A DNA stretch of 64,000 bases from Impatiens glandulifera (taxonomy: Eukaryota > Streptophyta > Magnoliopsida > Ericales > Balsaminaceae). Position numbers and translations under genes: made by a program. The stretch lies in assembly GCF_907164915.1 (NCBI RefSeq), contig NC_061863.1, positions 21,212,710 to 21,276,709 of the forward strand, written 5' to 3'. Under the pieces are notes generated by a model that saw only the letters and a program-made list of their open reading frames with translations, ran no database searches and was not told the DNA's origin. Positions 785-62,079 of the stretch are shown in pieces (the first letter of the stretch is position 1; each line of letters begins with the position of its first letter).

Positions 785-3120
785 ATGATTAGTACACCCA
801 AAATAGATTTCAATACTGGTTCTCCAGCCAGAAAAATAATTTCAAATGAATTCAAAAATCCGGGTTATACCCAATTCAGAAAATGGTTTTTTGAAAGTTT
901 TCACATTTCAGAAATAAAACAATTCAAAAAAGAATTTTATGAGTTCTGTACTGCTAAAAATGCTCTAATTCCTTTTACCTCTTGGTTCATAAGCACCTAT
1001 GTAAAAAATTATATTTCGGTAATTGAAAGAACTTTTAAATTAGAATCAGGGAAAACCTATCTAGGGACATATCCACCTCAACAACCTTTCCATATTGAAA
1101 AGGGAGAAAAAATACTAAATTTCGCGCCATACAAAAATTTAATTGAAAATGATACACTCCCAATAACATGCAAGCATATCAATAATATGTTTGAACAACA
1201 AAACTACACAAGTCTGTTCCTAAATATTCTAGGAGAACAGTTACAATACATGGAAAATAAAATTGAAAAATTAATAAATGAAATCAAACCAGGTACGTCA
1301 AAAATAACCCCAAAAGAAAAAGAAGCTTTACCGACTTTCCAACCACCTCCAATCATATCTGATTTCAAACTAAGGCCAATGCAAGAATTTGAGAAAATTC
1401 TTGAAGAAAAATTTAGCAAGCTAAGTATTAAGATTTTAGACAAGGAAAACAGAGATCATATTAATAAAATAGATAAATGGGCTGATAAACCTATACAAAG
1501 TAAATTTTACTACAATAGACCAACACCAATGGATGTCTTACATGAAGAATACACAGATACAATTGATATTAGTTATTCAGGAAACAAAATCTATGAATGG
1601 AATATTGATGGATATTCAAACAAACAAATTTATAATACAGTACATAGGATGTTAATGTACTCAACAGTTTGTAAAAATAGTAAAAATAGTGATAAAATAA
1701 TAACGACAATGATTGTTGCTGGATTCACCGGACAATTAAAGGGCTGGTGGGATAATTATTTTTCCCAAGAAAATAGAGATTCTATTCTTAACACTGTAAA
1801 ACAAGAAAACAATAGCCTAAATGAACATGCAGTTTATACATTAGCAATTAACATCATTGAACACTTCACGGGAAGGTTCAGTGATAATAGTGATACAATT
1901 AGAACATTATTACGGAATCTAAGGTGTAAGACACTTTCAGATTTTAGATGGTATAAAGATACCTTTCTAAGTAGAGTAATGGAACTACCATAATGCAATA
2001 ATGTGCATTGGAAATCCAAATTTATTGACGGCCTCCCTAGCCTATTTGCTGAAAGGGTTAGAAGAAACCTCAAAAAGAGTCCTTCAATGATACCATATGA
2101 AAACTATACATATGGTGTATTAATAGATACTTGTATACATGAAGGACTAGCCTTATGTAATGAAATAAGGTTAAGCCAACAAATTAAAAGACAGAGTCAA
2201 AATGAAAGACAACAATTAGGTCAATTTTGCCAACAATTTGGTATAGATAGCCCTACATCTAGAAAAGAGAAAATGGTGAAATATAATAAATTTCACAAAT
2301 ATAAAAAACCACCCCGAAAATACTCAGACATAAAACATGAGAGGAGGGAAGAAAAGGTTAAAAACAAGTTCAAAAATTTCAAAAATGGAAAGAAATGCTA
2401 CAACTGTGGAAAATTTGGACACACATCAAAATATTGTAGGGCAAAGAAAAAAATTAATAATCTTGAAATCCCAGAAGAAACGAAAAGATTAATAATCCAA
2501 ACTCTACAAAACTCAGAATCTGAAGAATCTAATTCAGATTCAATACCGAGTGATTGTGAAATAGATGACCTAGATAATGAAAACATTTCTGAATCAAGCT
2601 CGGAAGACTTTGAATGTGAGCCTTGCCGATCAGGATTAAGTTGTCCTAAAAAAGAAACAAATAACCTAGATCAAAATATTGACAAATCAAAATTATATAG
2701 AATCATATCTCAATTCTCAGATATGAAAGTTAATGCTCTATCATCAAATCATGCTTTTGAATTACTAAAATCCATCAAAGACCCAGAATTAAGAATGCAG
2801 ATCATAGATCAGTTTAATTCTGAAGAAGGAACTTCATCTTCTAAATATGAAGAGCCAGAAGAAAAGAGGTTCAATTATAATAATCATAATAAATCTTACA
2901 CTATGAGTGAAGTAATGAATCAACTTAGACACAAGATTCAAAACAAAGAAGAGAATACAACCCTCACAAATCTTTACAAAGAAATTAATAATTTAAAGGA
3001 AGAAATTAAGATATTAAAAAAGAAGAATATCATACAAAAGTCTAGAATAACTAAGCTTGAGGATAAACCTAGCGAAAATAATCAATATAATGACAACAAA
3101 GCAGAAATTGAAGAAAATAT
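785..3120 (+). pseudogene. ORF1 part 2: coat protein region with CCHC zinc knuckle and coiled coil
   Basis: This continues the ORF1 frame. Residues from 785 to 1990 form a Lys/Asn-rich capsid-type region. TAA at 1991-1993 interrupts it, and the frame reopens at 2003. A zinc knuckle with spacing C-X2-C-X4-H-X4-C lies at 2396-2437, preceded by a strongly basic stretch and followed by an acidic Ser/Glu-rich segment. This basic, knuckle, acidic arrangement is usual at the C terminus of caulimovirid coat proteins. About 2900-3080 encodes a Lys/Glu-rich heptad-like segment, probably a coiled coil. The two open halves are 402 codons and the first part of a 634-codon frame. Confidence 0.7.
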
Positions 3121-5094
3121 CTTCTCAGAAAATTTTTTATCCACAATAGAAATGGTTAAATCTCAAAAATGGCACATAAAAATATCTCTCCTAATAGATA
3201 ATTATTATACAAGGTCATTTACTGCTCTTGTTGATAGCGGAGCAGATTTAAATGTTATTCAGGAAGGAGTAATCCCTACTAGGTATTTTCATAAAACAAG
3301 TCATACCCTGTGGCATGCAGGGGAGGATAAACTCCAAATCCAATATAAGCTTCCAAAAGCCTATATATGTACTGATAATAAATGCATTCCTCAAAGTTTC
3401 ATACTTGCTAAAGATATATCAAATCAGGTCATACTTGGAACCCCATTCTTAAACACAATCTACCCTATTAAGATGATTAATAATAAATGTATTACAGGAA
3501 CCTTCCAGAAACATGATATTTTTCTAGAATTTATTGTGGAACCGTTTACTAAAATGTTACATAGTATATATGATAATATCAGAGCAAAACAAGATCAAAT
3601 ATTCTTCCTAAAGCAAGAAATAAGTCTAATAACAATAGATGAACAACTAGAAAATCCTAAATTACAAGAAAAAATAGCTCTACTAAAAGACCAACTTTCA
3701 ATAGATATTTGTAATGAACATCCTAATGCATTCTGGGATAGAAAGAAACATATAGTTTCACTACCATATGAGGAATCTTTTAATGAAAAGAATATTCCTA
3801 CAAAGGCAAGACCTTGCCAAATGAATTCAGAATATATGGAATTATGCAAAAAGGAGATAGATGCACTATTGCAGAAGTGGTTAATAAGTCCATCACAATC
3901 ACCCTAGTCATGTACGGCTTTCTATGTAAATAAACATTCAGAAGTCGAAAGAGGCGTGCCAAGGTTAGTAATAAACTATAAACCCCTAAACAAAGTATTA
4001 AAATGGATTAGGCACCCAATTCCTAATAAAAAGGATCTGTTAGATAGACTATATGATAGTTTAATATTTTCAAAATTTGATTTAAAATCAGGATATTGGC
4101 AAATTCAGATTGAAAAATCTGACAGGTATAAAACAGCATTCAATGTCCCTATAGGACATTATGAATGGAATGTAATGCCATTCGGATTAAAAAATGCTCC
4201 ATCCGAATTTCAAAAAATTATGAATAATATCTTTAATCCTTATAGCACATTTATAATTGTTTACATTGATGACATATTAGTTTATTAAAAAACAATTGAA
4301 ACTCATTTTAAACATTTAAATATGTTCAAAACAATAATAACTCAAAATGGACTAATAATTTCTAAACCAAAAATGGATCTTTTCAAAACAAGAATAAGGT
4401 TTTTAGGTCATATCATTGAAAAGGGAAATATTACTCCTATTAATAGAAACATAGAATTTGCGGAAAAATTCCCTAATATGATCACTGATAAAACACAGTT
4501 ACAAAGATTTTTAGGCAGCCTAAATTATGTGGCTCCATTACTATTAAAAATCTAACAGAAGATACATCAATCTTATATGAAAGACTGAAGAAGAATCCAA
4601 AACCATGGTCAAACCATCATACAGAGGCTATTAAAAGAATTAAAAATAAAGTAAAGGTACTTCCTTGTTTAATGATAAGTAACCCGAATTGGGAAAAGGT
4701 AATTGAGACTGATGCATCTGACATAGGATTTGGAGGAATACTAACTCAATTAGATCTAGAAACAAAACAGGTCTATCTTGTCAGGTTCCATTCAGGGAAA
4801 TGGAACAACTCTCAAAAGAATTATGCGACAGTCGCCAAAGAAATTCTGGCGATAGTCAAATGTGTTTTAAAATTCCAAGATGATTTATATAATCAAAAAT
4901 TTATTATACGAACAGATTGCAATGCAGCTAAATTCATGTTCCAGAAAGATTTTAAACATGATGTGTCAAAATAAATGTTCGCCAGATGGCAAGCTCATTT
5001 AGCCCCATTTGATTTTGAAATAACATACAAAAAAGGGATAGATAATAATCTTCCTGATTTCTTGACCCGTGAATTTTTAAATTTACAGGAATGA
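3121..5094 (+). pseudogene. ORF1 part 3: aspartic protease, reverse transcriptase, RNase H
   Basis: The protease motif DSGAD is at 3233-3247. The RT follows, interrupted by TAG at 3905-3907 and by TAA at 4286-4288, just after the YIDD catalytic box at 4262-4273. A frame change near 4545 moves RNase H into another frame; its first catalytic region (ETDAS) is near 4705. TAA at 4972-4974 cuts RNase H, and the frame then runs to the natural end, TGA at 5092-5094. In the family this part matures the polyprotein and reverse-transcribes pregenomic RNA. The catalytic motifs survive but the frame does not. Confidence 0.88.
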
Positions 5095-6740: not shown

Positions 6741-7084
6741 AATCTTACTACGTATTTAATTATTTGCTTTAAATGTCAAGCCTAATAGGCTAATCAAATT
6801 AGGTGTTGATCATGACCGCTAACTACCCTACCTAAAAAAAATGGTACTTTAATGGACATCTTGCATGGATTTGAAGTGTCGATCCCTTTTATAAAATGGT
6901 ACTTTAATTTTGTGTTCTTGTTTAGTCCTATTTAGCTACTGTTTAGGCATGTTGGACATTATGGAACTTTAAATTGAAGTTAAGTATTATAATTGGTTGA
7001 TAGGCATTTCTTTTAATCCTAAACACATGAGTTGTCCCTCGTCAGACTTTCTTTGTAAGTTCTAATTTTTATATCCGATCATAA
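6741..7084. other. Unassigned spacer
   Basis: About 340 bases of moderately AT-rich DNA right of the viral copy. I see no ORF, repeat unit or recognisable element in it. Confidence 0.5.
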
Positions 7085-7225
7085 AAATATGGTATATATA
7101 TATATTTACATATAAATATATTTTTATATATATATATTTACATATATATATATATATATATATTTACATATAAATATATTTATATATATATATATTTACA
7201 TATATTTATATATATATATATTTAC

Positions 7226-7257
<32 letters not shown>

Positions 7258-7393
7258 ATATTTATATATTTATATATTTATATATTTATATATTTACATA
7301 TATGTATATATTTACATATATGTATATATTTATATATATATATATTTTTATATATATATATTTACATATAGGTATATATTTATATATATATAA

Positions 7394-7424
<31 letters not shown>

Positions 7425-7463
7425 AATATATATATATATAAATATATATATAAATATATAAAA
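7085..7463. repeat. TA-rich compound microsatellite
   Basis: Runs of (TA)n are punctuated by TTTACATA, TTTATATA and AAATATA. The apparent open frames here, Ile/Tyr-rich on both strands, are low-complexity artefacts. A shorter pure (TA) run lies at 7626-7646. Confidence 0.9.
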
Positions 7464-9770: not shown

Positions 9771-10304
9771 TAAGATCCTAATTCCGTAATCCTGCTTTCT
9801 GGAAACCCATCAAACATCAGTTTCCATGGGTATGATGTTATGCTCATTATTCCCTCATAAGGGAATTAAAGTTTGTTTTCTAACTCAACAATGATGTGTT
9901 GGTCAACAAGGAAGTCCGCAACAATGCTTCCCTTGATGGACTTCTTTACCGCGTAGGCTATGTCGTATTTGGATAATATCATCATCCTAATTAGTCTAGG
10001 TTACAGAAGAGTTTGTTAGAATAAGAAATGGATCGAGTCCAGTCTTGATACTAACTTGATGGGGGTTGGCTTGCATGTAGTGCCTCAATCTTTTGGTGAC
10101 CCATGCATTTGCCCAATAGATTTTCTCAACTAGAGTGTAATTAAGTTCACACCTAGTCATCCTTTTAATGTTTTAGTACATAGTCGTTTCGAGTTCATCC
10201 TCATTTTCTTGAGCCAGAGGGGATTTTAGATAATCCTTGATTCTGTTAAAGGCTACTTGACAATTTTCATCCCATACAAATTTTTGGACTTTCTTTAACA
10301 ACTT
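9771..10304 (-). pseudogene. E0 connection and RNase H region (right of the split)
   Basis: Minus-strand translation starts KLLKKVQKFVWDENCQ at the E1 boundary. It continues through fragments such as NYTLVEKIYWANAWVTKRLRH and SIVADFLVDQ, which are typical of gypsy RNase H and its tether. Stops are present. Bases 10300-10304 (aactt) are the E1 target-site copy. Confidence 0.75.
10300..10304. repeat. Target-site duplication of E1, left copy (aactt)
   Basis: aactt directly precedes the TGTTGGGTCA end of E1 and is repeated at 38911-38915 after its ...CCTATCA end. Confidence 0.9.
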
Positions 10305-10459
10305 TGTTGGGTCAAATTATTTTGATTGTGTGTTGAAATAATTTAACCATTGAGATTTTAATATGAAATGACTTATGAGTTTTGATGCAGGTGTATTGAA
10401 ACAATATTTCATAAGACTTGACTCTAATGAGGATCATTAGACCGATTTTGGCAATTGAA

Positions 10460-11260
10460 TGCATAGAATTAGACATACAGTCTAACTCATCGGAGTTAGA
10501 CGTATAGTCTAATGAATGCATAGAATTAGACGTACAGTCTAACTCATCGGAGTTAGACGTGTAGTCTAATGAATACATATAATTAGACGTACAGTCTAAC
10601 TCATCGGAGTTAGACGTGTAGTCTAATGAATGCATAGAATTAGACGTACAGTCTAACTCATCGGAGTTAGACGTGTAGTCTAATATACACGGAATTAGAC
10701 GTAAGTCTAATATATTCGAAATTAGACGTACAGTCTAACTCATCGAGTTAGACGTGTAGTCTAATAGACTTGTAATTAGATGGATGGTCTAATAGATATT
10801 CAGAATTAGACGTACAGTCTAATTCAGTGGAGTTAGACGTGTAGTCTAATATATTTGCAATTAGATGGATAGTCTAATATGTGCGGAATTAGACGTGCAG
10901 TCTAACTTAGTGGAGTTAGACGTGTAGTCTAATAGAAAGTGAAAGTTAGACGTGAGTCTAACTCCTTCAGACAAGTCTGAGGTAGAACCGGAATTAGACG
11001 TGCAATCTAACTTAGTGGAGTTAGACGTGCAGTCTAATGGTTATTGGATAATTAGACATGTAGTCTAATTAGTGAAAGTTAGACGTAAGTCTAACTCCTT
11101 CAGACAAGTCTAAGGTAGAACCGGAATTAGACGTGCAGTCTAACTCAGTGAAGTTGGAGTTAGACGTGCAGTCTAATGGTTATTGTAATTAGACGTGAGT
11201 CTAATTCTATTAGACCAGGCGGTCTAATAGACGTTACTATTAAAATAAGATGTTTGATTT
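10460..11260. repeat. TTAGAC palindrome array in the E1 5' LTR
   Basis: Near-tandem units of 46-48 bp (attagacgtacagtctaac, tcatcggagttagacgtg, tagtctaatgaatgcatag) grade into looser copies. Each carries inverted TTAGAC/GTCTAA pairs. The repeated Ser/Asp/Leu peptide encoded on the minus strand is an artefact of the array. Confidence 0.9.
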
Positions 11261-11907
11261 CATTAGACTGATTTTACAAATCCGTCTAACTGAAATACGT
11301 TTAATGCTCAGTTTAAGTAGTATGCTTGAAGCTAGCATTTCACCTACCCACGTGCTGTAGCTGTACCCTACTCCTGCTCCACTTTCTAGTGAAGATTAGT
11401 ACAACAACTATATGTAACCAACCAAGGAATGCCACATAAGAGAATTTCCTCACATTACTTGTTTTGCAGGTACATCCCTGATGGAATATTCGTCGCACTA
11501 CTAGTGATGTACGACCACGATCCTTGTTCTCAGAACCTGCTGTGTACAATGGAGGCTTTCCAATGGAAGAGTGCCACGTATCATTCTAAAAGATTCGACT
11601 GTTAGCTCCTGCTCAGTATTTAATAAATCTAAAGGACAACGGACAATCTGCATCACGAACAAGCATCATACAATGAACAAGCAATCTGATTTTGTAGAGA
11701 GAGAAACTACTCAATCATCTTGCTTACTGAATTCATACTGTGAAGCTGCTTTCTGATTGTACTGTGTGTGAATCAAAAGAGAGCTAGAATCAAAACACCT
11801 TTAGCTGAGTGATATTCTTCATCTTGTAATTGAACAGAAAGTGTTCTGTTCAATAGTGAGCTAAGTGTGTGTAAACTGTATTTGATTCAAATCATATTAT
11901 AGTGAAT

Positions 11908-11966
11908 CCTTCCGGTGGTTGGAAGAAGGGGTGACGTAGGAGAGTTTCTCCGAACATCCATAAACA
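11908..11966 (+). promoter_or_regulatory. Conserved two-hairpin LTR block (E1 5' LTR)
   Basis: Stem 1 is CTTCC/GGAAG (11909-11913 with 11921-11925). Then comes AAGGGGTGACGTA, stem 2 GGAGA/TCTCC (11939-11943 with 11947-11951), and the tail GAACATCCATAAAC. It lies about 220-275 bases before the LTR end, probably in R/U5. Equivalent blocks occur near 14122, 19401, 30279, 37505, 38635, 52444, 60719, 62964 and 63787. Confidence 0.7.
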
Positions 11967-12186
11967 AACTGCTGTGTTCTTCATTTCGTTCATCTTTTCA
12001 TATTTCATCTTGTGCTTCAAACCCAAGTAAACAATTCTGCCTCGAATCTGTTTCAAGTGTTTACAAAAGTTTGCGTAGAATAGAAAGCGAATTAAATCCC
12101 TAACATGATTTCTTTCAAACCGGTTTTCATAAGCTTTCATCCTTAGCCAGACCCCCGTCTCTATCGATAAAGCCGATCCTATCAAT

Positions 12187-13257: not shown

Positions 13258-13297
13258 ACAAAATGGGAAATCCATCAGAATAACTCAAATATGGATT
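13258..13297 (+). pseudogene. E1 gag C-terminal remnant in original orientation
   Basis: The plus-strand codons read NGKSIRITQIWI and stop at the E2 insertion. They continue after E2 at 30662 as PKGVIDRGPN then a stop. The last five bases (ggatt) are the E2 target site. Confidence 0.85.
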
Positions 13298-14506
13298 TGT
13301 TAGATAAATTAGACCGGTTAAAATAAGAACTTAACAAAACAAATTTCCTATGCAGGATCGGTCAAAAATCTGACCGGTCAAGAATCTAACCGGTCAAGTA
13401 ATCAAACCAGTTAGAAGAAGAAGCAAAGGATGTATCCAAAACCGGAAAGTTATCCGGTTAACCTGAAGCTATGAACAACCGGTAGACATCCTAAACCGAA
13501 ATGTAGCATCCAACCGGAAAAACCGATGAAGAGACTACTTAGAGAAAGAAGTCAAGATTATCAAACTAAGTACAGTTTACAAATCGGTGTAAACAGACAC
13601 TTTGGGTATATGTAGAAGATAATATCAAAGGATCAGACTGTGACATTGCCATATCAATACAAGTCTGATGATACTCTGAAGGCTGCAGAAGATTGCCTGA
13701 AGAAACAGTTACCATTTTGGTACAAGTCAAAGGTGCAGACTTCCAGATACAGGCAACCGGCCAACCGACAGTTGCCATATTAAGTAAAAGACAAATGAAG
13801 CCGGTCTGCTTCATGCCTTGAAAGCTTAAACCGCAATTAATGCCTTTTCTCAACCAATCAGATTCAAGGATTACCCTGCAGGTATCCGTTGAAGAAATGT
13901 GACCGTTGGCACATTTCACCTATAAAAGAAGGAGTTGAAGAGGAGTAAATGCAGTTCTAAGAGTTCCAACAACCCAAGTTACAAGTTGTGTTTATCTATC
14001 TACAAAGTTTAAGTGTCCATTTGAAGTGTGATTACAATTTCTGTGAGAATTGTACGAGTGTTCATCGAGCAGTAAATAAGTCTCGATCGTGTATTGTGTT
14101 TGTGTATTCCTTAGTGAATATCCTTCTCGCGGTTTTGAGAAGAAGGGGTGACGTAGGTGTTTTATCTCCGATCATCCATAAAAACCTGTGTCTTGTTCTT
14201 TACTTTCTACCGATTCTACTCCCTAACCGACTTGTACTATTCTAACCGACTTACATCATTCTAACCGACCTCCTAAACTCCAAACCGATATTCTCCAAAA
14301 CCTATCTCTATTCATCATGTGTGCGTTGCTTCAGTCTGAAACAAACCACTTCCACACTTGAACTCGGTTCAAGGGTTTGTGACAGCCTGTGTAGTATCGA
14401 AACCCGGTGTTAATCTCTAACCGGATTAAACACCAACCATTAAGTGTTGTCAGAAGGTGTAAACCGGACGGACCCCGATCCCCCACCCGCGATCTAGATC
14501 CTAACA
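13298..14506 (+). repeat. E2 5' LTR
   Basis: It starts TGTTAGATAAATTAGACCGG and ends CCTAACA. It is rich in ACCGGT/AACCGG words near the start. The two-hairpin block is at about 14122-14180: stem 1 is CTTCTC/GAGAAG (14123-14128 with 14137-14142), while stem 2 is weakened here (GGTG against CTCC). Confidence 0.93.
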
Positions 14507-14508
14507 AT

Positions 14509-19020: not shown

Positions 19021-20268
19021 TGTTAGGATCTAGGTCGCGGCTGGGGAACCGGGGTCTGGCCGGTTAGCGACTTCACTCAACGGTTGGTGTTTAATCCGGT
19101 TAAAGATTAACACCGAGGTTTCAATACTACACAAACTGTCACAAACCCTTGAACCGAGTTCAAGTGCGGAAGTGGTTTGTTTCAGGTTGAAGCAACACAC
19201 ACACAAGATAAGTAGAACCGGATTTGGATAGAGTCGGTTTGGAGTTTGGTGGGTCGGTTTGGAGTTTGGTGGGTCGGTTTGGGATTTAGTAAATCGGTTT
19301 AAGTGATGTTGAATCGGTTAGGGCGGTATGAGTCGGTTAGGATATTGAGTCGGTTGGAAAATAGACCTGACAGAAAAGAAGAACACAAGAAAGGTTTTTA
19401 TGGATGTTCGGAGATAAAACTCCTACGTTACCCCTTCCTCTCGAAACTACGAGAAGGTTATTCGCTAAGGAATACACAAACACAATCCGATCGAGACTTA
19501 TTTGCTGTTCGATAACACTCGTACAATTCTCACAGAAATTGTAATCACGCTTCAAATAAACACTTAAGCTCTAAATCTTGTAGAGAGATAAACTTGCAAT
19601 CAATGATTCTTAGAGCCTGTAGTTGGTAGAACTGGTAACCGTTTTTGGCTTGGGTTGTTGAAAACTCTTAGAACTACTTTTACTCCTCTTCAGCTCCTTC
19701 TTTTATAGGTGAAATGTGCCAACGGTCACATTGCATCTCCTTAAATCTGATTGGTTGAGCAGAGGTTCAGTGATTCAGACCTGGCGGTCTAGGCTTCCAG
19801 TGTATAGGTCAAACCAGCTAGGTATGTCTTTTTCTTAATATGGCAACTGTCGGTTGGTCAGTTGCCTGCACTTGAAGGATTGCGCCTCTGATTTATCCCG
19901 GAGTGGAAAGATCTTGTCGGACGATCTTCTGCAGCCTGCAGATTGTCTTCAAACTTGTATGAATATGGCAGTACTAAAGTCTGTCCCTTCGGTATCATCC
20001 TCAACAGATACTCAAAGTATCTATTTGCACCGGTCGGTTGTTTATGTTAACCGGATGACTTCCGATTTTCATAACTTCAGATTTACCGAATGTCCAACGA
20101 TTTTGGCCTTCTGATTTGACCGGTCTTGTCTTCTTGATCGGTTAGGTTCTTGGCCGGTTGTATTGCTTGACCAGTTGAATTACTTAATGGGTTGCGTTCT
20201 TTAACCGTTCCTGCACATGAAATTTGTTTTTGTTAAGTTCTATTTAACCGATCTAATTTTATCTAACA
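19021..20268 (-). mobile_element. Solo LTR of the E2 family, inverted, inside E2 pol
   Basis: It begins TGTTAGGATCTAGG and ends ATTTTATCTAACA, the reverse complement of E2-type LTR ends. It is flanked by gtctc on both sides (19016-19020 and 20269-20273). No internal sequence or second LTR is present. The two-hairpin block is near 19401-19456 on the minus strand. It splits the E2 RNase H codons. Confidence 0.92.
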
Positions 20269-29161: not shown

Positions 29162-29471
29162 ACTTTTAATTATCTATTCTTTATGTCAAGTTTATAATAT
29201 TTCCTATATATATATATAAAGTATTTTTGAAAACCGGCCTACAATTTACTTTTTACATGGTTTTGAATATTTTAAATAAAATAATCAAAAAGGGAGAAAT
29301 TGATAAGATAAAATTTTTCTTTAAAGACGAAATTTTTCTCAAATTTTTCCAAAATTTTTCTAAATTTTTTTTCTCAAATCCGGCCAAACAAACTTTTAAA
29401 ACAACCGGCCTACTTCTTACTTCTTACATGATTTTGAATATTTTAAATAAAATAATCAAAAAGGGAGAAAT
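29162..29471 (+). repeat. E2 3' untranslated end with duplicated polypurine tract
   Basis: A unit of about 70 bases, ending ataatcaaaaagggagaaat, occurs at about 29231-29301 and again at about 29402-29471. Only the second copy abuts the 3' LTR. Between them lies a T-rich stretch (aatttttctcaaatttttcc). Confidence 0.85.
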
Positions 29472-30661
29472 TGTTAGATAAATTAGACCGGTTAAAATAA
29501 GAACTTAACAAAAAAAATTTCCTATGCAGGAACGGTCAAGAATCTAACCGGTCAAGTAATCAAACCGGTTAGAAGAAGAAGCAAAGGATGTATTTAAAAC
29601 CGGAAAGTTATCCGGTTAACCTGAAGCTATGAACAACCGATAGACATTCTAAACCGAAATGCAGCATCCAACCGGAAAAACCGATGAAGAGACTACTTAG
29701 AGAAAGAAGTCAAAATTATCAAACTAAGTATAGTTTACAAATCGGTGTAAACAGACACTTTGGGTATATGCAGAAGATGATATCAAAGGATCAGACTGTG
29801 ACATTGCCATATCAATACAAGTCTGATGATACTCTGAAGGCTGCAGAAGATTGCCTGAAGAAATAGTTACCATTTTGGTACAAGTCAAAGGTGTAGTCTT
29901 CCAGATACAGGCAACCGGCCAACCGACAGTTGCCATATTAAGTAAAAGACAAATGAAGCCGGTCTGCTTCATGCCTTGAAAGCTTAAACCGTAATTAATG
30001 CCTCTGCTCAACCAATCAGATTCAAGGATTACCCTGAAGGTATCTGTTGAAGAAATGTGACCGTTGACACATTTCACCTATAAAAGAAGGAGCTGAAGAG
30101 GAGTAAATGCAGTTCTAAGAGTTCCAACAACCCAAGTTACAAGTTGTGTTTATCTCTACAAAGTTTAAGTGTGCATTTGAAGTGTGATTACAATTTCTGT
30201 GAGAATTGTACGAGTGTTCATCGAGCAGTAAATAAGTCTCGATCGTGTATTGTGTTTGTGTATTCCTTAGTGAATATCCTTCTTGCGGTTTCGAGAAGAA
30301 GGAGTGACGTAGGAGTTTTATCTCCGAACATCCATAAAAACCTGTGTCTTGTTCTTTACTTTCTGTCGGTTCTACTCCCTAACTGACTTGTACTATTCTA
30401 ACCACTTACATAATTCTAACCGACCTCCTAAACTCCAAACCGATATTCTCCAAAACCTATCTCTATTCATCCTATGTGTGTTGCTTTAGTCTAAAACAAA
30501 CCACTTCCGCACTTGAACTCAGTTCAAGGGTTTGTGACAGCCTGTGTAGTATCGAAACCCGGTGTTAATGTTTAACCGGATTAAACACCAACCGTTAAGT
30601 GTTGTTAGAAGGTGTAAACCGGCCGGACCTCGGTCCCCCACCCGCGATCTAGATCCTAACA
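29472..30661 (+). repeat. E2 3' LTR
   Basis: It starts TGTTAGATAAATTAGACCGG and ends GATCCTAACA; the target-site copy agatt follows. The two-hairpin block at about 30279-30335 has stem 1 CTTCTTG/CGAGAAG and an intact stem 2 GGAG/CTCC. Apparent ORFs inside are LTR artefacts. Confidence 0.93.
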
Positions 30662-32105
30662 AGATTCCTAAGGGAGTGATTGACCGGGGACCCAATTGAA
30701 GGTGGGTACCAAAAGATTGTAAATATTTATTTATGTAGGTACAAATAAACGAAGGACAGGAGGAATCTGTATGGTATCTTGATAGCAGATGTTCCAGGCA
30801 CATGATAGGAAACAAACGGCTTCTCACTGATATTTCAGATTGCTCTGGACCTAAGATCACATTTGGTGACAGCAAGAAGGGTAAGACCATGGGTAAAGGT
30901 AAGATTATCCATGGTAACCTAACTATTAACGACGTGCTGCTTGTTGATAATCTGTGTTATAATTTAATCAGCATTAGTCAACTATGTGATAATGGTTTGT
31001 CAGTAGATTTTCAAACTCATGCATGTCTAGTTAAAGATCAAGATGGAAACATTTTATTGACTAGAAATAGAGTAGGAAACTCATATAAAATGAATTGGCA
31101 AAAAGAGTCTTCTGATCCTATGTGCATGATTGCCAAGAATGACCAGAAATGGTTATGGCATAAACATTTGAACCATTTGAATTTTAAAACCATCAACAAC
31201 ATTTGTTCAAATAATTTAGTTATTGGTTTGCCCAAACTTCAGTTTTCAAAGGACAAGATATGCACTGCTTGCCAGTTAAGTAAACAGGGCAGATCATCGT
31301 TCAAAAGCAAAGGGAAATCACAATCCAGCCGTATCCTAGAACTTTTACATATGGATCTATTTGGTCCAATTCCTGTAAAGAGTATAGGAGAAATGAGATT
31401 TGCCTTAATTGTTATTGATGATTTCTTTCGTTTTACATGGATTGCATTTTTACCATCAAAAGATAAAACTATTGAAAATTTGATTAGGATATTTAAAGGA
31501 ATTCAGAATCAGAAATCTTTGAATATCACGTGCATTAGAAGTGATCAGAGAACTGAGTTCACTAAAAGATACCTATCATCTTATCTCGAGGAGACTGGAA
31601 TTAGGCACGAGTTGTCTAGCGCCAAAACTCCACAGCAAAACGACATTGATGAGAGAAGAGTGAGAACTCTAAAGGAAGCAGCGAGATCTATGCTTGCTGA
31701 ATCAAATGTACCTCAGAAGTTCTGGGCGAAAACTATTAGTACTGCCTGCTATACACAAAACCGGTCAATAATTAACAAACGTTTTGATAAAACTCCCTAT
31801 GAGCTGTAATATGGGAGAATTCCTACAGTGTCTTACTTTAAGATATTCGGGTGTAAATGTTTTGTCCATAACAATGGAAATGTTTATTTGACCACTTTTG
31901 ATGCTAAAGCAGATGAGGGATTCATGTTGGGATACTCATCAGTAAGCAAGGCTTACAGAGTATACAACAAAAGAACACAAACTGTTGAAGAATCCCTCCA
32001 TGTAGTTTTTGATGAGCCTGTTGAGAGCAAAACTAATGAACCCATTGATCTTGCTGACTGACTAAAAGCGACTAGTCTTGAGTCTATAAGTGAAGAAGAA
32101 GAAAC
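30662..32105 (+). pseudogene. E1 gag end, protease and integrase
   Basis: The gag tail PKGVIDRGPN and TGA lead into pol. The protease site reads SVWYLDSRCSRHM: the expected DSG is DSR. The integrase has the HHCC region (WLWHKHLNHLNF...CTACQLSK) and the D,D,E positions in HMDLFGPI, IRSDQRTEF and DIDERRVRTL. TAA at 31807 falls in the conserved TPYEL region, and another stop (TGA) occurs near 32059. Confidence 0.88.
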
Positions 32106-35392: not shown

Positions 35393-35683
35393 GTTGAAGT
35401 CTATCCTTTCCAGAGTAAAGTCTAGGAAGAAGAAGAAGAATAGATTCTACATTTCTTTATGAAATTTATTTTGAATATTTAGATGATGTTTTTGTGATAA
35501 ACTTATTTTGGTTACTTTGAACAATGTTTTGTGTGTTTCTTCTGAAAACACTCACGTTTGGTTATTTATCAATATGATATCTTTATGCTGAATGTGCATG
35601 TGAAGTTTTAGTTTATTTATATGATGAATGCATGTGTTGATATATATGCAGGTTTGCAATTTCTTCATAAAAAAGGTGGAAAT
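35393..35683 (+). other. E1 3' untranslated region and polypurine tract
   Basis: About 290 non-coding bases ending aaaaaaggtggaaat (35669-35683), directly before the TGTTGGGTCA end of the 3' LTR; this is the plus-strand primer tract. Confidence 0.8.
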
Positions 35684-38600
35684 TGTTGGGTCAACTTATT
35701 TTGACTGTGTGTTGAAATAATTTAACCATTGAGATTTTGATGATGAAATGACTTATGAGTTTTGATGTAGGTGTATTGAAACAATATTTCATAAGACTTG
35801 GCTCTAATGAGAATCATTACACCGATTTTGGCAATTGAATGCATAGAATTAGACGTACAGTCTAACTCATCGGAGTTAGACGTGTAGTCTAATGAATGCA
35901 TAGAATTAGACGTACAGTCTAACTCATCGGAGTTAGACGTGTAGTCTAATGAATGCATAGAATTAGACGTACAGTCTAACTCATCTGAGTTAGACGTGTA
36001 GTCTAATGAATGCATAGAATTAGATGTACAGTCTAACTCATCAGAGTTAGACGTGTAGTCTAATGTACACGGAATTAGACGTAAGTCTAATATATTCGAA
36101 ATTAGACATACAGTCTAGCTCATCGGAGTTAGACGTGTAGTCTAATAGACATGTAATTAGACGGATGGTCTAATAGATATTCGGAATTAGACGTACAGTC
36201 TAACTCAGTGGAGTTAGAAGTGTAGTCTAATATATTTGCAATTAGATGGATAGTCTAATATGTGCGGAATTAGATGTGCAGTCTAACTCAGTGGAGTTAG
36301 ACGTGCAGTCTAATAGAAAGTGAAAGTTAGACGTGAGTCTAACTCCTTCAGACAAGTTTGAGGTAGAACCGGAATTAGACGTGCAGTCTAACTCAGTGGA
36401 GTTAGACGTGCAGTCTAATGGTTATTGGATAATTAGACGTGTAGTCTAATTAGTGAAAGTTAGACGTAAGTCTAACTCCTTCAGACAAGTCTGAGGTAGA
36501 ACCGGAATTAGACGTGTAGTCTAACTTAGTGGAGTTAGACGTGTAGTCTAATGGTTATTGTAATTAGACGTGAGTCTAATTCTATTAGACCAGACGGTCT
36601 AATAGACGTTACTATTAAAAGAAGATGTTTGATTTCATTAGACTGATTCTACAAATCCGTCTAACTGAAATACGTCTAATGCTCAGTTTAAGCAGTATGC
36701 TTGAAGCTAGTATTTCACCAACCCACGTACTATAGCTGTACCCTACTCCTGCTCCACTTTCTAGTGAAGATTAGTACAACAGCTATATGCAACCAACCAA
36801 GGAATGCCACGTAAGAGAATTTTCCTCACATTACTTGTTTTGCAGGTACATCCCTGATGGAATATTCGGCGCACTACCAGTGATGTATGACCACGATTCT
36901 TGTGCTCAGAACCTGCTGTGTACAATGGAGGCTTTCCAATGGGAGAGTGCCACATATAATTCTAAAAGATTCGACCGTTAGCTCCTGCTCAGTATTTAAC
37001 AAATCTAAAGGACAACGGACAATCTGCCTCACGAACAAGCATCATACAATGAACAAGCAATCTGATTTTGCAGAGAGAGAAACTACTCAATCATCTTGCT
37101 TACTGAATTCATACTGTGAAGTTGCTTTCTGATTGTACTGTGTGTGAATCAAGAGAGAGCTATGTTAGGATCGGGGACGCCCTTGAAGGACCGGGGTGTA
37201 TTTCCGGTTTCGGGTAAGGGGAGGCCGCTTACAACAACACACACAACTTGGTGATAGTCCGGTTAGAGACTAAAACCGTTCTCAGCACTGCACAACCTGT
37301 CACAGACTCTTGAACCGGTGTTTAAGGGCGGAAGTGTCTGTTTCAGGTTGAAGCAACGTTTGCGACTTTAGATGATGTTTAAGAAGGAGGCTGTTTAACG
37401 AAGGTGAGTGATCGGTTTTAGAAGAGCGATTAGTTTGCGGTTTACGTTTAGAAGAAGCGGGAAATGAAAGCGAATGAAAGAACACGAGACAAGGAAATTT
37501 GTTTATGGATGTTCGGAGCAAACCCTCCTACGTCACCCCTTCTTCTCAGGTTATGAGAAGGATCTCCACTAACTCTTTAGAGTTACAATTACACTTCCGG
37601 TCGAGCCCAACTTCGCTACTCGCCGGTTACACCAAACTCACACTTTGATGTAATACAACAACTCAACACAATATCACACGAATGACTTCCGGTTTTAGGC
37701 AAACCGGTTTTTAGAATATAAAACTTTATCTCTCTAGAATTTAATGCTTTGATACTTTGTTTTCGTAATCCGTCACTTGCAGAACTGGCATTTAATGAAG
37801 ACGATCCGTCTTCCTTTTATAGCTGAAAGTAGCTAACGGCTACTTTCTTCTCTCTCTTCTGGATTGGTTGATCGTCATCACGCCTGTTTGTAGAAAGGTT
37901 GCTTGCACGCTTCAACTTCCTCAACACCTGGCATTCATGCAGGTGACTCTGAACAGATGATGACATAGCCGGTTTTTAGATTGATACACGTGTTGAACAT
38001 CCGCTTCCGGTCGTCAGCATCGGATCACCAGGGCATCATTGCTTTCCTCCCATGCTTCTGATCGGATCCGATCTTCTTTTATTCTTTCGAGACACGTTTC
38101 TTCCGTCATGGTACGTCACTCTTGAGATTTGAGTCTTCTGACTTTTGATCTGTACTTTCCGGTTTCTGTGTCTTGTGCATTATGGTCCGGTTGGAGTGTA
38201 ATCTTTTGTCCTTCATTGACCGGTTGCTTGAGAGAGTGAAGCCGGTTCCTGTGATCCTTTATCTTGATCACTTGAAGGCCGGTTTCTTTGAAGTAGTAGC
38301 AACCGGTTATTGATGCAAGGTTTCCGGTTCCGGTTTGTTAAGTACCTGCACATGAAATTCAGCTTCTGTTTAGTTTGTCTGGCCGGTTCCAAAATTAATC
38401 TACTTAATTTTTCTATCAATTTCTCCCTTTTTGATTATTTAGAATAAATATTCAAAAATTGTAATGTGTGGCCGGTTTTAAGAAAATTAACTTACTTAAT
38501 TTTTCTATCAAGCTAGAATCAAACCTTTAGCTGAGTGATATTCTTCATCTTGTAATTAAACAGAAAATGTTCTGTTCAATAGTGAGCCAAGTGTGTGTAA

Positions 38601-38910
38601 ACTGTATTTGATTCGAATCATATTATAGTGAATCCTTCCGATGGTTGGAAGAAGGGGTGACGTAGGAGAGTTTCTCCGAACATCCATAAACAAACTACTG
38701 TGTTCTTCATTTCTGTCATCTTTTCATATTTCATCTTGTGCTTCAAACCCAAGTAAATAATTCCGGCTCAAATCCGTTTCAAGTGTTTACAAAAGTTTGC
38801 GTAGAATAGAAAGCGAATTAAATCCCTAACAGGATTCCTTTCAAACAGTTTTTCATAAGCCTTCATCCTTAGCCAGACCCCCGTCTCTATCGATAAAGCT
38901 GATCCTATCA
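35684..38910 (+). repeat. E1 3' LTR with a later insertion
   Basis: It starts TGTTGGGTCAACTTATT and ends GATCCTATCA, followed by the TSD aactt (38911-38915). The TTAGAC array occupies 35840-36610. An LTR element at 37163-38510 interrupts it; without this it is about 1874 bp, close to the 1880-bp 5' LTR. The two-hairpin block is at 38635-38692. Confidence 0.93.
37163..38510 (-). mobile_element. Recombined LTR element in the E1 3' LTR
   Basis: TSD agcta at 37158-37162 and 38511-38515. On the minus strand it starts TGATAGAAAAATTAAGTAAG (38510 downwards) with about 40 bases of LTR start. That jumps to an internal 3' end with polypurine tract (aatcaaaaagggagaaat, around 38419-38440). A 1256-bp LTR (38418-37163, ending GATCCTAACA) follows. 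So it is not a plain solo LTR: the 5' LTR body and nearly all internal sequence are gone. Its LTR is related to that of E2. Confidence 0.85.
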
Positions 38911-39480
38911 AACTTAAATAGAGGATCGCATGTCATAGTAAGCTTGATAATCTATCGGATAATGTATTGGAGTTTTCCCAAAATCCTCGGACCTTTCTTT
39001 CATTTTGAGGGACCGGCATGGCCGTGATTGCTTCAATCTTAGAGGGATCGACCTTGATGCCCCTCTGTGTGATTAATAAGTCTACCATTTTACCAGCTTT
39101 GACCCCAAAGGTAAATTTCTTTGGATTGAGTCGTAGCTGATATTTCCTAAATCGTTGTAGGAATTTTTTTAGAGGCTTAGGACATGCCTTTCGCTATCAT
39201 TTGATTTGACGATCATGTCGTCGACATATACTTCCACTACTTTGTGGATCATGTCATGAAGGATCATGATGTCTTCCTTTTGATCGATGGCTCTCGCGTT
39301 CTTAAGACTGAAAAGTATGACCATATAACAGAAAGTACCAACTTCTATTATGAATGTAGTCTTTTCATTGTCTTGCGGGGCCATCAGGATTTGATTGTAT
39401 CCTAAGAATCCATTCATGAATGATAACAGTTCATGGCCGGCGATGTGATCGACCAATATCTTAATGTAATATAGTGGGAA
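38911..39480 (-). pseudogene. E0 reverse transcriptase, C-terminal half
   Basis: On the minus strand: GHELLSFMNGFLGYNQILMA, FSLKNARAIDQ, the catalytic box EVYVDDMIVKS near 39215, and a thumb ending TMTCDPLFK at the E1 boundary. The motifs are gypsy/Tat type. A frame change and a stop occur near 38970-39170. Confidence 0.82.
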
Positions 39481-40289: not shown

Positions 40290-40651
40290 TGTTGAGTTAT
40301 GGATCCTACACTTATAATAAATTCTACATTGTTAATTAGAGTTTATTGGGTTTTCTTTTTAGTTTTGGGTTTGGGCCTGACCAAAGTTATTTAGGTTTAT
40401 TTTCTGAATGTTTATCTTATAAAATATGTGATTATTAAGAGTTTACATTAATAAGACATAATTCTAGAGAGATAAAGTGTGAGGCAAAAACTCTGTATTC
40501 CTTTTTCTTCATAGTGAAATCTGGTGGTGGATGAAGTAGACGTAGCTCAATTTGAGTGAACCACTATAAATTCGTGTCTTCTTGTGTTCTTTTTTCTTGC
40601 ATTTTTACAAATTGTTTCAAGCTGGTCGGATTTGGGAGATAAAACCTAACA
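40290..40651 (+). repeat. E4 5' LTR
   Basis: It runs from TGTTGAGTTA to AAACCTAACA; a TATAAAATATG box lies near 40427, suggesting the promoter. Confidence 0.92.
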
Positions 40652-44635: not shown

Positions 44636-45000
44636 TGTTGAGTTATGGAGCCTACACTTATAATAAACTCTACATTGTTAATTAGAGTTTATTGGGTTTT
44701 CTTTTGGATTTTGGGCTTGGGCTTGACCAAAGTTATTTATGTTTATTACCTGAATGTTTACCCTATAAAATATGTGATTATTAAGGGTTTACATTGATAA
44801 GACAAAATTGTAGAGAGATAAAGTGTGAGGAAAAAACTCTATATACCTTCTTCTTCATAGTGAAATTTGGTGGTGACTGAAGTGAACGTAACTCAATTTG
44901 AGTGAACCACTATAAATATGTGTCTTCTTGTGTTCTTCTTTCTTGCATTTTTACAGATTGTTTCAAGGGTGGTGGGATTTGGGAGATACAAAACCTAACA
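44636..45000 (+). repeat. E4 3' LTR
   Basis: It starts TGTTGAGTTATGGAGCC after the purine-rich ccaagtggaagat, ends AAACCTAACA, and is followed by the TSD ttagg. Confidence 0.92.
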
Positions 45001-51639: not shown

Positions 51640-52221
51640 TGGTACCCATTTTTTAGGTCCGTGGCTTATTAGTCCATTGGGAATCCATACTTTGATTATT
51701 TTTATGGATTTCCCGATGTGTGTGAATATACTGTATTTGACAGATTGCTCTCTACCTACTGATGATTCTTTAGCTTCAAAGGATGATTTTTGGTAAATAT
51801 TTTTTTACTTCCTGTCAAGTTTTTTCTTGACATACCAACTGGTTGTCCTTCTCTCAGGTTTCAGGTAGCTTAAAATTGGCTTTACATAAATCATCTCATC
51901 CTTTGAAGTTAAATCATTGCAGCTTAAATCAGTTTCTTTATTAGTTAAACTACCCCTGACAAAACTCATTGTCTTAAGTTTGTCTTTTGTCGGGTTTAAC
52001 TTTTCACAAGACTTGTCTGGGATAGCATTGTCAAATCCTAAACCGAATTTGCATTTGGCAGGACTCATCATACTTATTTGCTGTCTAACTGCATCTCCAG
52101 ACTTCGTCCAGGAACTGACCACATATGTCAAACATTGGTTTTTAGAAAACAGAGTTTGAACCTTTTCATTGAGTTTCTCATTCTCATATAAGAACTCAAC
52201 CATTTTGTTTTCAAAAACTTT
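51640..52221 (-). pseudogene. E6 gag C-terminal half
   Basis: Minus frame with FLYENEKLNEKVQTLF, LTYVVSSWTKSGDAV, MMSPAKCKFGLGFDNAIPDK, and the serine-rich linker MSFVRGSLTNKETDLS. It ends near 51640 with the gag/pol junction text. The right end, acttt (52217-52221), is the E5 target site; gag continues at 62080. Confidence 0.8.
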
Positions 52222-53897
52222 TGATAGGATCGGCGTAATCAATAGAGACGAAGATCTGGCGATTGATAACGGCTTAGGAAAACGATTTGATAGAAATCCT
52301 GTTAAGGATTTAGATCACTTTCTATTCTGCACAAACCTTGCAAACTCTTGAACGATTCAAGTGCGGAAATGTTTGCTTGGATTTGAAGCTAAGAACCAAA
52401 AATGAAAAGATGACAGAATGAAAAGACACAATAGTTTGTTTATGGATGTTCAGAGCTAACTCTCCTACGTCACCCTTTCTTCCAACCACCGGAAGGATTC
52501 ACTATTCTTTCGAATCAAATACAGTTGCACGAATAGCTCACTATTGAACAGAACAGACTCTATTCAACTTACAATATGAAGAATATCACTCAGCTAAAAC
52601 AATGCTTTTATTCTAATTCTCTCTTGATTGAACACTTAATAGAAAACAAGAAAGCAGCTCGCTCAATATGACAGTTTGTATGCTAATATTGAATACTCTG
52701 TAATTACAGCAATGTTCAACAAATTCTCTTGTTTTCCCGTACATTCTTTCGTTGTCATTCAGAATCTTTAAATAAGGAGCAAGTACCAACGGTCGAATCT
52801 TTCATAATGATGTGTGGCGAACTTCCATTGAAACACCTCCATAGTGCACAACAGACTCTGAGCACTAGGATCGTGGCTGTACCAAACTAGTAGTGTGCAA
52901 AATATTCTTCAAGGATATTCTTACAAAAACAAGTAATGGGAAGAATATTTATTTACGTGGAATTAATCAATTGGTTGCAACTGACTGTCGTACTGATCTT
53001 CACAGAAAAGTGGAGCTGGAGTAGCGTGTACAACTAGTTGATCGTGGGTAGATGGGTGCTAGCTTCAAGCAACTGCTTAAGCCTAACATTAGACGTATTT
53101 CACTTAGATGACCTCGTCTATTGAAATTAGACGCTCCAGTCTAATAGCAGGATCCATTAGACCACCTGGTCTAATAGAATTAGACAACACGTCCCTTCAG
53201 ACTAATCTGAAGGAGTTAGACCGCACGTCTAACTCTCATTAGTTAGACCGCATGTATAACTCTCATTAGTTATACTGCATGTTTAACTACGTTTGTTAGA
53301 CTGCACGTCTAACTACATCTGTTAGACTACACGTCTAACTACGTGTGTTAGATTGCACATCTAACTCCGTGTGTTAGACTGCACGTCTAACTACGTCTAT
53401 TAGACTGCACGTATAACTACATGTGTTAGATTGCACGTCTAACTCCGTGTGTTAGACTACACGTCTAACTCCGTCTGTTAGACTGCACGTCTAACTTCGT
53501 CTGTTAAACTGCATGTCTAACTCCGTCTGTTATACTGCAAGTCTAACTCCGTGTGTTAGACTACACGTCTAACTATGTCTGTTAGACTGCACGTCTAACT
53601 ATGTCTGTTAGACTGCACGTCTAACTACGTCTGTTAGACTGCACGTATAACTCCGTCTGTTAGACTACACGTCTAACTCCGTGTGTTAGACTGCACGTCT
53701 AACTCCGTCTAACTCAATGCATCTAATGCCAAATCAGTCTAATGAACCTCATTAAGACTAAGTCTAATATAACCTATTTTCGATATACCTGCACCAAAAA
53801 CAATTAGACGACATAGATTGAGTTTTATATACATTCATCATCAAAATTCCAATAGTCAAACTATTTTGACACTTAATCAAAATAATTTGAACCAACA
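52222..53897 (-). repeat. E5 3' LTR (left copy)
   Basis: It starts TGATAGGATCGGCG and ends TTTGAACCAACA. The TTAGAC array is at 53085-53720, with units like gttagactgcacgtctaact. The adjacent atttccccctt (53898-53908) is the complement of the polypurine tract. Confidence 0.93.
53085..53720. repeat. TTAGAC/GTCTAA array in the E5 3' LTR
   Basis: More than twenty tandem copies of about 26 bp (gttagactgcacgtctaact plus acgtct or ccgtct). The 5' LTR of E5 has a matching array at 61365-61880 with fewer copies, which largely explains the length difference between the two LTRs. Confidence 0.9.
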
Positions 53898-53910
53898 ATT
53901 TCCCCCTTTA

Positions 53911-60445: not shown

Positions 60446-60481
60446 GATTCAGGTTCTTTAAGCTTGAGAATAGGAAACAGA

Positions 60482-60493
60482 GCTCTGATACCA
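60482..60493 (-). promoter_or_regulatory. E5 primer-binding site
   Basis: gctctgatacca on plus is TGGTATCAGAGC on minus, two bases from the 5' LTR. Confidence 0.92.
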
Positions 60494-60495
60494 AT

Positions 60496-62074
60496 TGATA
60501 GGATCAACGTAATCAATAGAGACAGAGGTCTGGCGATTGATAACGACTTAGGAAAAACGATTTGATAGAAATCCTGTGAAGGATTTAGATCACTTTCTAT
60601 TCTGCACAAACCTTGCAAACTCTTGAACGATTCAAGTGCGGAAATGTTTGCTTGGATTTGAAGTTAAGAACCAAGAATGAAAAGATGACAGAATGAAAAG
60701 ACACAATAGTTTGTTTATGGATGTTCGGAACTAACTCTCCTACGTCACCCCTTCTTCCAACCACCGGAAGGATTCACTATTCTTTCGAATCAAATACAGT
60801 TGCATGAATAGCTCACTATTGAACAGAACAGACTCTTTTCAACTTACAATATGAAGAATATCACTCAGCTAAAACAATACTTTGATTCTAATTCTCTCTT
60901 GATTGAACACTTAGTAGAAAAAAAGAAAGCAACATGCTCAATATGACAGTTTGTATGCTAAGATTGAATACTCTGTAATTACAGCAGTGTTCAGCAAATT
61001 CTCTTGTTTTCCCGGCCGTTCTTCCGTTGTCCTTCAGAATCTTTAAGTAAGAAGCAGGTACCAACGGTCGAATCTTTTATAATGACGCGTGGCGAGCGTC
61101 CATTGGAATGCCTCCATAGTACACAATAGACTTTGAGCACTAGGATCGTAGCCGTACCAAACTAGTATTGCGCCAAATACTCTTCAAGGATATTCCTGTA
61201 AAAACAAGCATTGGGAAGCATATTTGCTTACGTGGCATTAATCAATTGGTTGCAACTAGTTGTCGTACCGATCTTCATAGGAAAGTGGAGCAGGAGTAGC
61301 GTACAACTAGTTGATCGTGGGTAGACGAGTGCTAGCTTCAAGCAACTGCTTAAGCCTAGCATTAGACGTATTTCACTTAGACGACCTCGTCTAATGAAAT
61401 TAGACGCCCCGTCTAATAGCAGAATCCATTAGACCACCTAGTCTAATGAAATTAAATAGCACGTCTAATACCATATCCCTTCAGACTAATCTGAAGGAGT
61501 TAGACCGCACTTCTAACTCTCATTAGTTAGACTGCACGTCTAACTTCCATTAGTTAGACTACACGTCTAACTATACATCCCTTCAAACTAATCTGAAGGA
61601 GTTAGACCGCACGTCTAACTCTCATTAGTTAGACTACACGTCTAACTAAGTCTGTTAGACTGCACGTCTAACTACGTGTATTAGACTGCACGTCTAACTC
61701 CGTGTGTTAGACTTCACGCCTAACTCCGTGTGTTAGACTACACGTCTAACTCTGTGTGTTAGACTGCACGTCTAACTATGTTTGTTAGACTGCACGTCTA
61801 ACTCCGTGTGTTAGACTGCACATCTAACTCCGTCTGTTAGACTGCACGTCTAACTCTGTCTGTTAGACTACACGTTTAAATCCGTCTAACTCAATGCATA
61901 TAATGCCAAATTAGTCTCATGAACCTCATTAAGACTAAGTCTAATATAACCTGTTTTCGATACACCTGCACCAAAAACAATTAGACGGCATATATTGAGT
62001 TTTATATACATTCATTATCAAAATTCCAATAGTCAAACTACTTTGACACTTAGTCAAAATAATTTGACCCAACA
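60496..62074 (-). repeat. E5 5' LTR (right copy)
   Basis: It starts TGATAGGATCAACG and ends TTTGACCCAACA, followed by the TSD acttt. It contains the two-hairpin block near 60719-60775 and the TTAGAC array at 61365-61880. Confidence 0.93.
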
Positions 62075-62079
62075 ACTTT

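Follow-up and report, generated by a model that had tools for sequence, protein, structure and literature searches.

A candidate U5-leader RNA hairpin shared by Sireviruses and other Copia-type LTR retrotransposons of Impatiens glandulifera

Results

LTR retrotransposons in the window

The stretch of DNA analysed here (the window; 64,000 nucleotides) comes from the 654-Mb genome of Impatiens glandulifera and is located in DNA rich in LTR retrotransposons. Comparison of the window sequence with itself revealed LTR pairs at 10304-12185 and 35683-38911, the latter interrupted by another insertion; at 13297-14507 and 29471-30662; and, on the minus strand, at about 52220-53901 and 60474-62079. A shorter pair, at 40290-40651 and 44636-45000, is of a type that we call F2. 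Open reading frames at 16314 and 17838 had domain matches to integrase (rve) and to the RVT_2 reverse transcriptase. A C-rich stretch, gacccccgtc (12150-12159), and a primer binding site, TGGTATCAGAGC, after 12184 are consistent with a Sirevirus. Sireviruses are plant-specific according to PMC2829016, where their polyC signal is described.

Other features were seen in the same DNA. Two neighbouring long frames (785-3907) contain Pfam domains DUF7746 and DUF7588 and a retroviral protease domain; they differ from the Copia frames in the same domain scan and perhaps belong to another integrated retroelement. The region 7081-7463 is a self-complementary repeat region that matched itself in both orientations in the self-comparison. 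Numerous tandem or palindromic units around TTAGACGTGCAGTCTAA occupy 10456-11206 and 35836-36581, within the LTR and upstream of its TATA-like box. This is also where the published Sirevirus repeat boxes lie, but the TTAGACGTGCAGTCTAA units are without the CGG-CCG core.

A hairpin with an internal loop in Sirevirus LTRs

We found that the LTR at 10304-12185 contains two neighbouring predicted hairpins on the plus strand. The first, stem 1 (CTTCC-GGTGGTT-GGAAG; 11909-11925), was seen only in Sirevirus-type LTRs. The second, an extended form of stem 2 (11929-11959, with its GGTG at 11930), is larger than had been described. An earlier reading of the sequence alone (the sequence-only reading) had given stem 2 as GGAG-loop-CTCC. 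This inner pairing was recovered, but the predicted stem is longer: in the RNAfold structure, GGGUG (11929-11933) pairs with CAUCC (11955-11959) outside GGAGA/UCUCC (11939-11951), and ACGUA (11934-11938) is left opposite GAA (11952-11954) as an asymmetric internal loop. Because of this pairing, GGGGTGACGTA is not the mere sequence between stems for which it had been taken; it is the 5' half of the outer stem plus one side of the internal loop. The inner stem and apical loop read GGAGA-GTT-TCTCC here. The letters of the inner stem vary by family with pairing kept, and ACGTA is the same in the Sireviruses and in the types F2 to F5 described below. Overall, the hairpin consists of 4-5 bp of outer stem, the ACGUA/GAA loop, 4-6 bp of inner stem and an apical loop of 3-6 nt.

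All ten copies of the block that had been reported in Sirevirus-type LTRs are present in the window, at the correct coordinates. We name each copy by the position of its GGTG. Besides copy 11930, those on the plus strand lie at 14146-14177 (copy 14147, in the LTR at 13297-14507), with GAT replacing GAA; at 30302-30333 (copy 30303, in the LTR at 29471-30662), with one outer-stem substitution; and at 38655-38685 (copy 38656), in the second LTR of the 10304-12185 type. Those on the minus strand lie at 63789-63819 (copy 63818), in an LTR that extends past the window end; at 62965-62996 (copy 62995), with ATGTA replacing ACGTA; at 60719-60750 (copy 60749); at 52444-52475 (copy 52474); at 37507-37538 (copy 37537), with GGAG/CTCC and a stem 1 of CTTCTCA/TGAGAAG; and at 19402-19433 (copy 19432), with one outer-stem substitution.

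The block is real, but the wording proposed for its three shared parts is letter-exact in only 3/10 copies (11930, 38656 and 37537). AAGGGGTGACGTA was exact in 5/10 window copies and had one mismatch in the other five, and GAACATCCATAAAC was exact in 7/10, the exceptions being 14147, 30303 and 19432. The inner arms of stem 2 deviate in 14147 (GGTG/CTCC), 60749 (GGAG/TTCC) and 52474 (GGAG/CTCT). When folded in a 75-nt context, the hairpin was the minimum-energy form in 6/10 of these Sirevirus copies. The remaining four comprise one copy with GAT in place of GAA and three in which a substitution affects the outer stem or the 5' strand of the loop. Some decay of pairing is expected, since most genomic copies are presumably old insertions.

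The hairpin is abundant. The 15-mer GGGGTGACGTAGGAG had 12,564 exact matches genome-wide, compared with 0 for a reversed control, and a perfect structural match was found in 6/20 evenly spaced 10-kb stretches of one contig (C1). In these 20 stretches plus the window (264 kb), ACGTA/GAA between two perfect 4-bp stems occurred 12 times, whereas the other 179 permuted word pairs reached 3 occurrences at most. With a looser outer stem, the counts in the same 264 kb were 16 for ACGTA/GAA and 9 for the best permuted pair. The 12 matches are related Sirevirus copies, so they show the abundance of the module and not independent events.

The hairpin occurs outside Sireviruses

The sequence-only reading had treated the element as one of Sirevirus LTRs. 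We found that it is not confined to them: three other LTR families (F2, F3 and F4) and one further locus (F5) carry the same hairpin. A search with the loop words located it on the plus strand in the non-Sirevirus Copia LTR at 40290-40651, at 40535-40565 (AGTAG-ACGTA-GCTCA-ATT-TGAGT-GAA-CCACT), and in the second LTR of the same F2 element (44636-45000), at 44881-44911. Each copy has one outer-stem mismatch, and the hairpin was the minimum in neither (0/2) of the 75-nt folds. The integrase and reverse transcriptase of this element (40.3-45.0 kb) are 28% and 38% identical, respectively, to those of the Sireviruses in the window. Within 40511-40567, CACTAT, which includes part of the outer stem, could instead pair with a complementary ATAGTG upstream.

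More copies were found with the pattern GTGGACGTA-N{8,34}-GAACCAC, which had 1,085 matches genome-wide compared with 1 for the reversed control. With TAGTGAA upstream and TAAA downstream added as anchors, there were 480 matches compared with 3 in the control. Twenty short loci, chosen for diversity among 100 listed of the 1,085 matches, were fetched. In these stretches the LTR flanks of types F2 to F5 look unrelated. Their inner stems differ by type: RCUCA/UGAGY in F2, GGUC/GACC in F3, RCCAAG/CUUGGY in F4 and GGCC/GGUC in F5. Folded in a context of 70-76 nt, the hairpin was the minimum in 6/20 of the fetched non-Sirevirus copies. Folded in isolation, six cores that represent all five types (Sirevirus and F2 to F5) had the same predicted architecture, with folding energies only moderately better than those of shuffled sequences (z -1.5 to -3.0).

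Pairs of listed matches in the same orientation were spaced by about 4.3 kb in F2, 4.7 kb in F3 and 2.47 kb in F4, as would be the case for the two LTRs of one element. F3 encodes a Copia reverse transcriptase (39% and 29% identity in two stretches), and the reverse transcriptases mark F2 and F3 as Copia elements. F4 is different in content. Its LTR matches are 2,467 bases apart at two loci, and in the one 1.8-kb interior that was checked (locus L076) there was no match to Copia pol (best E 0.36). Tandem repeats with lengths of 28, 30, 60, 90, 95 and 114 bases make up 1,277/1,801 bases of this interior, and its largest open frame (213 aa) lies partly within them. The F4 element nevertheless keeps the hairpin, a TATA-like box and a primer binding site, and appears to be non-autonomous. 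F5 is represented by one locus only, in which a primer binding site was not found. We infer that F4 and F5 also belong to Copia elements.

A TAGTGAA box lies shortly upstream of the hairpin in 19/25 Sirevirus rows. In the fetched copies, judged by eye, it was present in 6/8 of F2 and 5/5 of F3, and absent in F4 and F5. All positive sequences were drawn from one genome; similar words are presumably present in LTRs of other plants.

The inner stems differ between families and stay paired

Because MAFFT placed the 3' strand of the inner stem wrongly, base pairs were counted by script. In the first 100 of the 1,085 matches, the first four inner pairs could all form in 74, and three or more of them in 95. 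These 100 matches contain 46 distinct inner strings, 26 of which had four contiguous pairs; shuffled sets had a mean of 1.8 and a maximum of 7. With one representative of each of the five types, 20/20 inner cells paired, and the true assignment was the only one of 120 permutations to reach 20.

The outer stem was less informative. It differs as a unit between the two forms compared, GGGUG/CAUCC in Sireviruses and GUGG/CCAC in the others, and 24/25 cells paired in the five representatives, a value reached by 12/120 permutations. This test is a weak one, as the search pattern itself prescribed GTGG/CCAC. F3 to F5 and most of F2 were found with a pattern fixing GTGG/CCAC, ACGTA and GAA, so in these copies the outer pairing and the identity of the loop are given by construction. 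The free part of the test is the contrast between Sirevirus and non-Sirevirus forms and the fifth pair, which is G-C, A-U or C-G, with a G-G mismatch in F4.

Control sequences gave mixed results. A similar pattern had 14 matches in viral contigs, with 0-2 contiguous inner pairs each; two other pattern searches there gave 0 and 0 matches, and a reverse transcriptase search of these contigs found no relatives. In bacterial (GTDB) contigs, the 20-base pattern GTGGACGTAGG-N-CCGAACCAC, which fixes the first two inner pairs, had 12 matches, compared with about 12.6 calculated by chance. Eight of these had 2-3 contiguous inner pairs, one had 6, and three near-identical ones had 7. With 6-7 contiguous pairs in 4/12 matches, inner complementarity can evidently arise without the element in GC-rich DNA. 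This control lowers the weight of the chance-match comparison; the evidence from differences between families is independent of it. In three bacterial metagenome contigs (L014, L016 and L020), a near-identical 40-base stretch fits the whole hairpin, with 7 inner pairs; it is probably a conserved coding stretch.

On these counts the predicted pairing of the hairpin is well supported. The results might also indicate a DNA element whose dyad symmetry is incidental: an ACGT-core site for a transcription factor, located downstream of the start site. ACGTA is common to the types found (in part through the construction of the search), and TGACGTA resembles bZIP sites, which we counted in favour of a DNA element. 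However, TGACGTA was seen in the Sirevirus form alone, and a DNA site leaves unexplained why the two arms of the inner stem change together from family to family, why GAA stands on the opposite side and why the hairpin loops are short. We regard a DNA element as very improbable.

Stem 1 is a smaller hairpin added by Sireviruses

Stem 1 had been proposed to stay paired across Sirevirus subtypes, and this was confirmed: in the register of the sequence-only reading, 88/98 cells were standard pairs. The test used 14 distinct arm pairs from 25 copies. Shuffled arms gave a mean of 80.2 of 98 cells and reached 88 in 44/20,000 trials; the shuffles ignore relatedness. Two rows with one arm pair (L026 and L040) were anchored one base off, which lowered the observed count. 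The varying pairs are positions 5-7 (U-A/C-G, C-G/G-U and G-C/A-U). In a separate test on 10 hand-picked subtypes, 64/70 pairs formed (p 0.005). An overlapping register, CCTTC/GAAGG, had no covariation signal (5,632/20,000 shuffles) and was rejected. Covariation of stem 1 is therefore borne out as a modest signal within Sireviruses (44/20,000 shuffles reach 88), but the stronger and wider signal is that of stem 2.

Stem 1 formed in the same register in 7/10 window copies in the 75-nt folds. Genome-wide, CTTCTC-N-GAGAAG-AAGGGGTGACGTA had 3,822 matches, compared with 0 for the control. Among 100 listed of these, inspected by eye, the seventh pair was A-T, G-C or G-T, with two exceptions of A facing C. 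Stem 1 was not seen by eye in the 20 fetched non-Sirevirus copies (F2 to F5). It is a smaller second hairpin that Sireviruses have added just upstream of the shared one. The inner stems that differ between families yet stay paired, with the modest covariation of stem 1, support the earlier suggestion of selection on RNA structure.

The hairpin lies between a TATA-like box and the primer binding site

A TATA-like box (TATAWA, TATTTAA or TATATT) precedes the hairpin by 122 to 341 nt in 10/12 window copies, with additional nearer boxes in three, and a primer binding site was found 114 to 362 nt downstream for 5/12 copies. These distances were 248 nt and 170 nt, respectively, in one F3 element, and 79 nt and 94 nt in one F4 element. 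Overall, the TATA-like box is 79-341 nt upstream and the primer binding site, where found, 94-362 nt downstream. The hairpin is between the two in the four families with both landmarks (Sirevirus, F2, F3 and F4), the position expected for the leader of the genomic RNA; we call this region a putative leader on the basis of these landmarks. A block outside transcribed R/U5 would have spoken against an RNA function, and as far as is visible, this is not the case.

The same position bears on several possible roles. One is in reverse transcription: the hairpin might arrange the leader for the primer tRNA and the start of reverse transcriptase, or might pause or help the first strand transfer. The hairpin is upstream of the primer binding site wherever the latter was found and is kept in the apparently non-autonomous F4, but the spacing of hairpin and primer binding site is variable (94 to 362 nt). 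Pairing of the GAAC strand of the hairpin with the T arm of the primer tRNA was considered and rejected: complementarity to the T arm of plant initiator tRNA appears poor, which we counted against this role. A role in reverse transcription appears unlikely, though still a contender.

Alternatively, the hairpin might control translation of Gag from the leader, for example by ribosome stalling or shunting. This role would suit its position in the expected 5' leader, with the TATA-like box on one side and the primer binding site on the other. In contrast, the one F4 interior, with neither a Copia pol match nor a frame above 213 aa, belongs to an element that keeps the hairpin. This single carrier, apparently non-autonomous, speaks against a role in translation alone, and we consider translational control the least probable of the alternatives.

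It is also conceivable that the hairpin acts at the other end of the transcript, in formation of the RNA 3' end or in stabilising the RNA where the 3' LTR transcript ends. Both ends carry LTR sequence, and the ENE of Evade is a structured element that confers stability on plant Copia RNA by way of the poly(A) tail (PMC12501189). However, R was inferred to be very short in plant Copia LTRs, with the TATA box and the poly(A) signal close together (Benachenhou 2013, PMC3601003). With such a short R, the hairpin would be beyond the 3' end and would fall in U5 rather than in R. The distance to the TATA-like box (79-341 nt) is also variable for a processing signal. A 3'-end or stability role seems improbable to us.

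Discussion

We think it about evenly balanced whether the structure described here is a conserved, cis-acting RNA hairpin of the U5 leader of Copia-type LTR retrotransposons that serves, most likely, as a Gag/nucleocapsid site for packaging or dimerisation. In cells, the genomic RNA would form the hairpin within its 5' leader, in U5, and the hairpin would act in cis on that RNA. The element's own Gag/nucleocapsid would recognise it for packaging or dimerisation, and the ACGUA/GAA internal loop may be the shape recognised. A cis-acting role is most likely because several families retain the hairpin, as does an element in which no Copia pol is recognisable. Gag-mediated packaging or dimerisation is the simplest role that fits, with initiation of reverse transcription second.

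A broader proposal is that the ACGUA/GAA loop between two freely exchangeable stems defines one RNA family, an ancestral Gag-recognition signal of plant Copia elements that is used in Sireviruses and non-Sireviruses and borrowed by non-autonomous passengers. We put this forward tentatively, as a possibility on the doubtful side. A small RNA element of defined shape that is shared by distant Copia lineages is nonetheless a concrete and testable candidate, and it suggests how relatives without Gag could be carried along. The structure could also serve to find LTRs that are otherwise unalignable by sequence.

The hairpin matches no Rfam family, and we found no prior description of it in the open-access literature. 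Rfam gave 0 matches in the window and, in four fetched short loci, two matches far below the gathering score, neither over the hairpin. A description was not found in the open-access text available on Sirevirus motifs or RNA structure and on Copia stem-loops, leaders and packaging, nor in that on sarcin-ricin motifs together with retrotransposons. No such hairpin appeared in the portions available of one enod40 paper, one paper on grapevine Copia and one 2025 review. Among the matches listed for the word GGACGTAGG in open-access literature, none was a retrotransposon paper by its title or the start of its abstract.

Conserved palindromes in Sirevirus LTRs, mentioned in the sequence-only reading, are indeed in print, but they are a different feature. 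Bousios et al. 2010 (PMC2829016) describe repeated palindromic motifs (RM) with a CGG-CCG core that precede the TATA box in multiple copies in each LTR. Like these, the hairpin is a conserved non-coding LTR signal with dyad symmetry. It is not one of them: it occurs once per LTR, downstream of the TATA-like box (10/12 copies), without a CGG-CCG core, and, unlike the motifs of PMC2829016, was also found outside Sireviruses. In the text available from that paper, 'hairpin', 'stem-loop' and 'TGACGT' each had 0 occurrences, and a stem loop is mentioned only at the PPT/3'LTR junction. The hidden Markov models of plant Copia LTRs (Sire and Retrofit) of Benachenhou et al. 2013 (PMC3601003) report TATATA, CAACAAA and integrase motifs. 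Those motifs and the hairpin are alike as conserved LTR features across plant Copia clades, but the account available in PMC3601003 is without a plant Copia U5 hairpin.

The internal loop resembles the bulged-G (sarcin-ricin) motif, with GUA facing GAA. The motif is described as having a bulged G, a U-A tWH pair and an A-G tHS pair (GUA facing GA; PMC8450098), and at the level of sequence alone the hairpin fits GUA/GAA. The tHH pair beside the bulged G is listed there as A-A, A-C or G-A, but here C faces A, with ACGTA/GAA fixed in the genome-wide pattern. Thus C takes the place of the A that precedes the bulged G in the sarcin-ricin prototype, and a C-A pair is not among the combinations given in the text available from PMC8450098. 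In addition, where the prototype has its lower non-Watson-Crick pair, the hairpin has a G-C pair and an additional A.

Structured or cis-acting RNA elements are known from other Copia elements. The ENE of Evade/Copia93 (PMC12501189) resembles the hairpin in being a structured part of the RNA of a plant Copia element. The two are not the same: the ENE has U-rich internal loops, lies in the 3' UTR and pairs with the poly(A) tail, whereas the hairpin has an ACGUA/GAA loop and lies in the putative leader. The dimerisation and packaging signals of BARE, for which the text available from PMC3735527 gives neither sequence nor structure, are cis signals in a Copia RNA that are retained by a relative without Gag; likewise, the hairpin is retained by the apparently non-autonomous F4.
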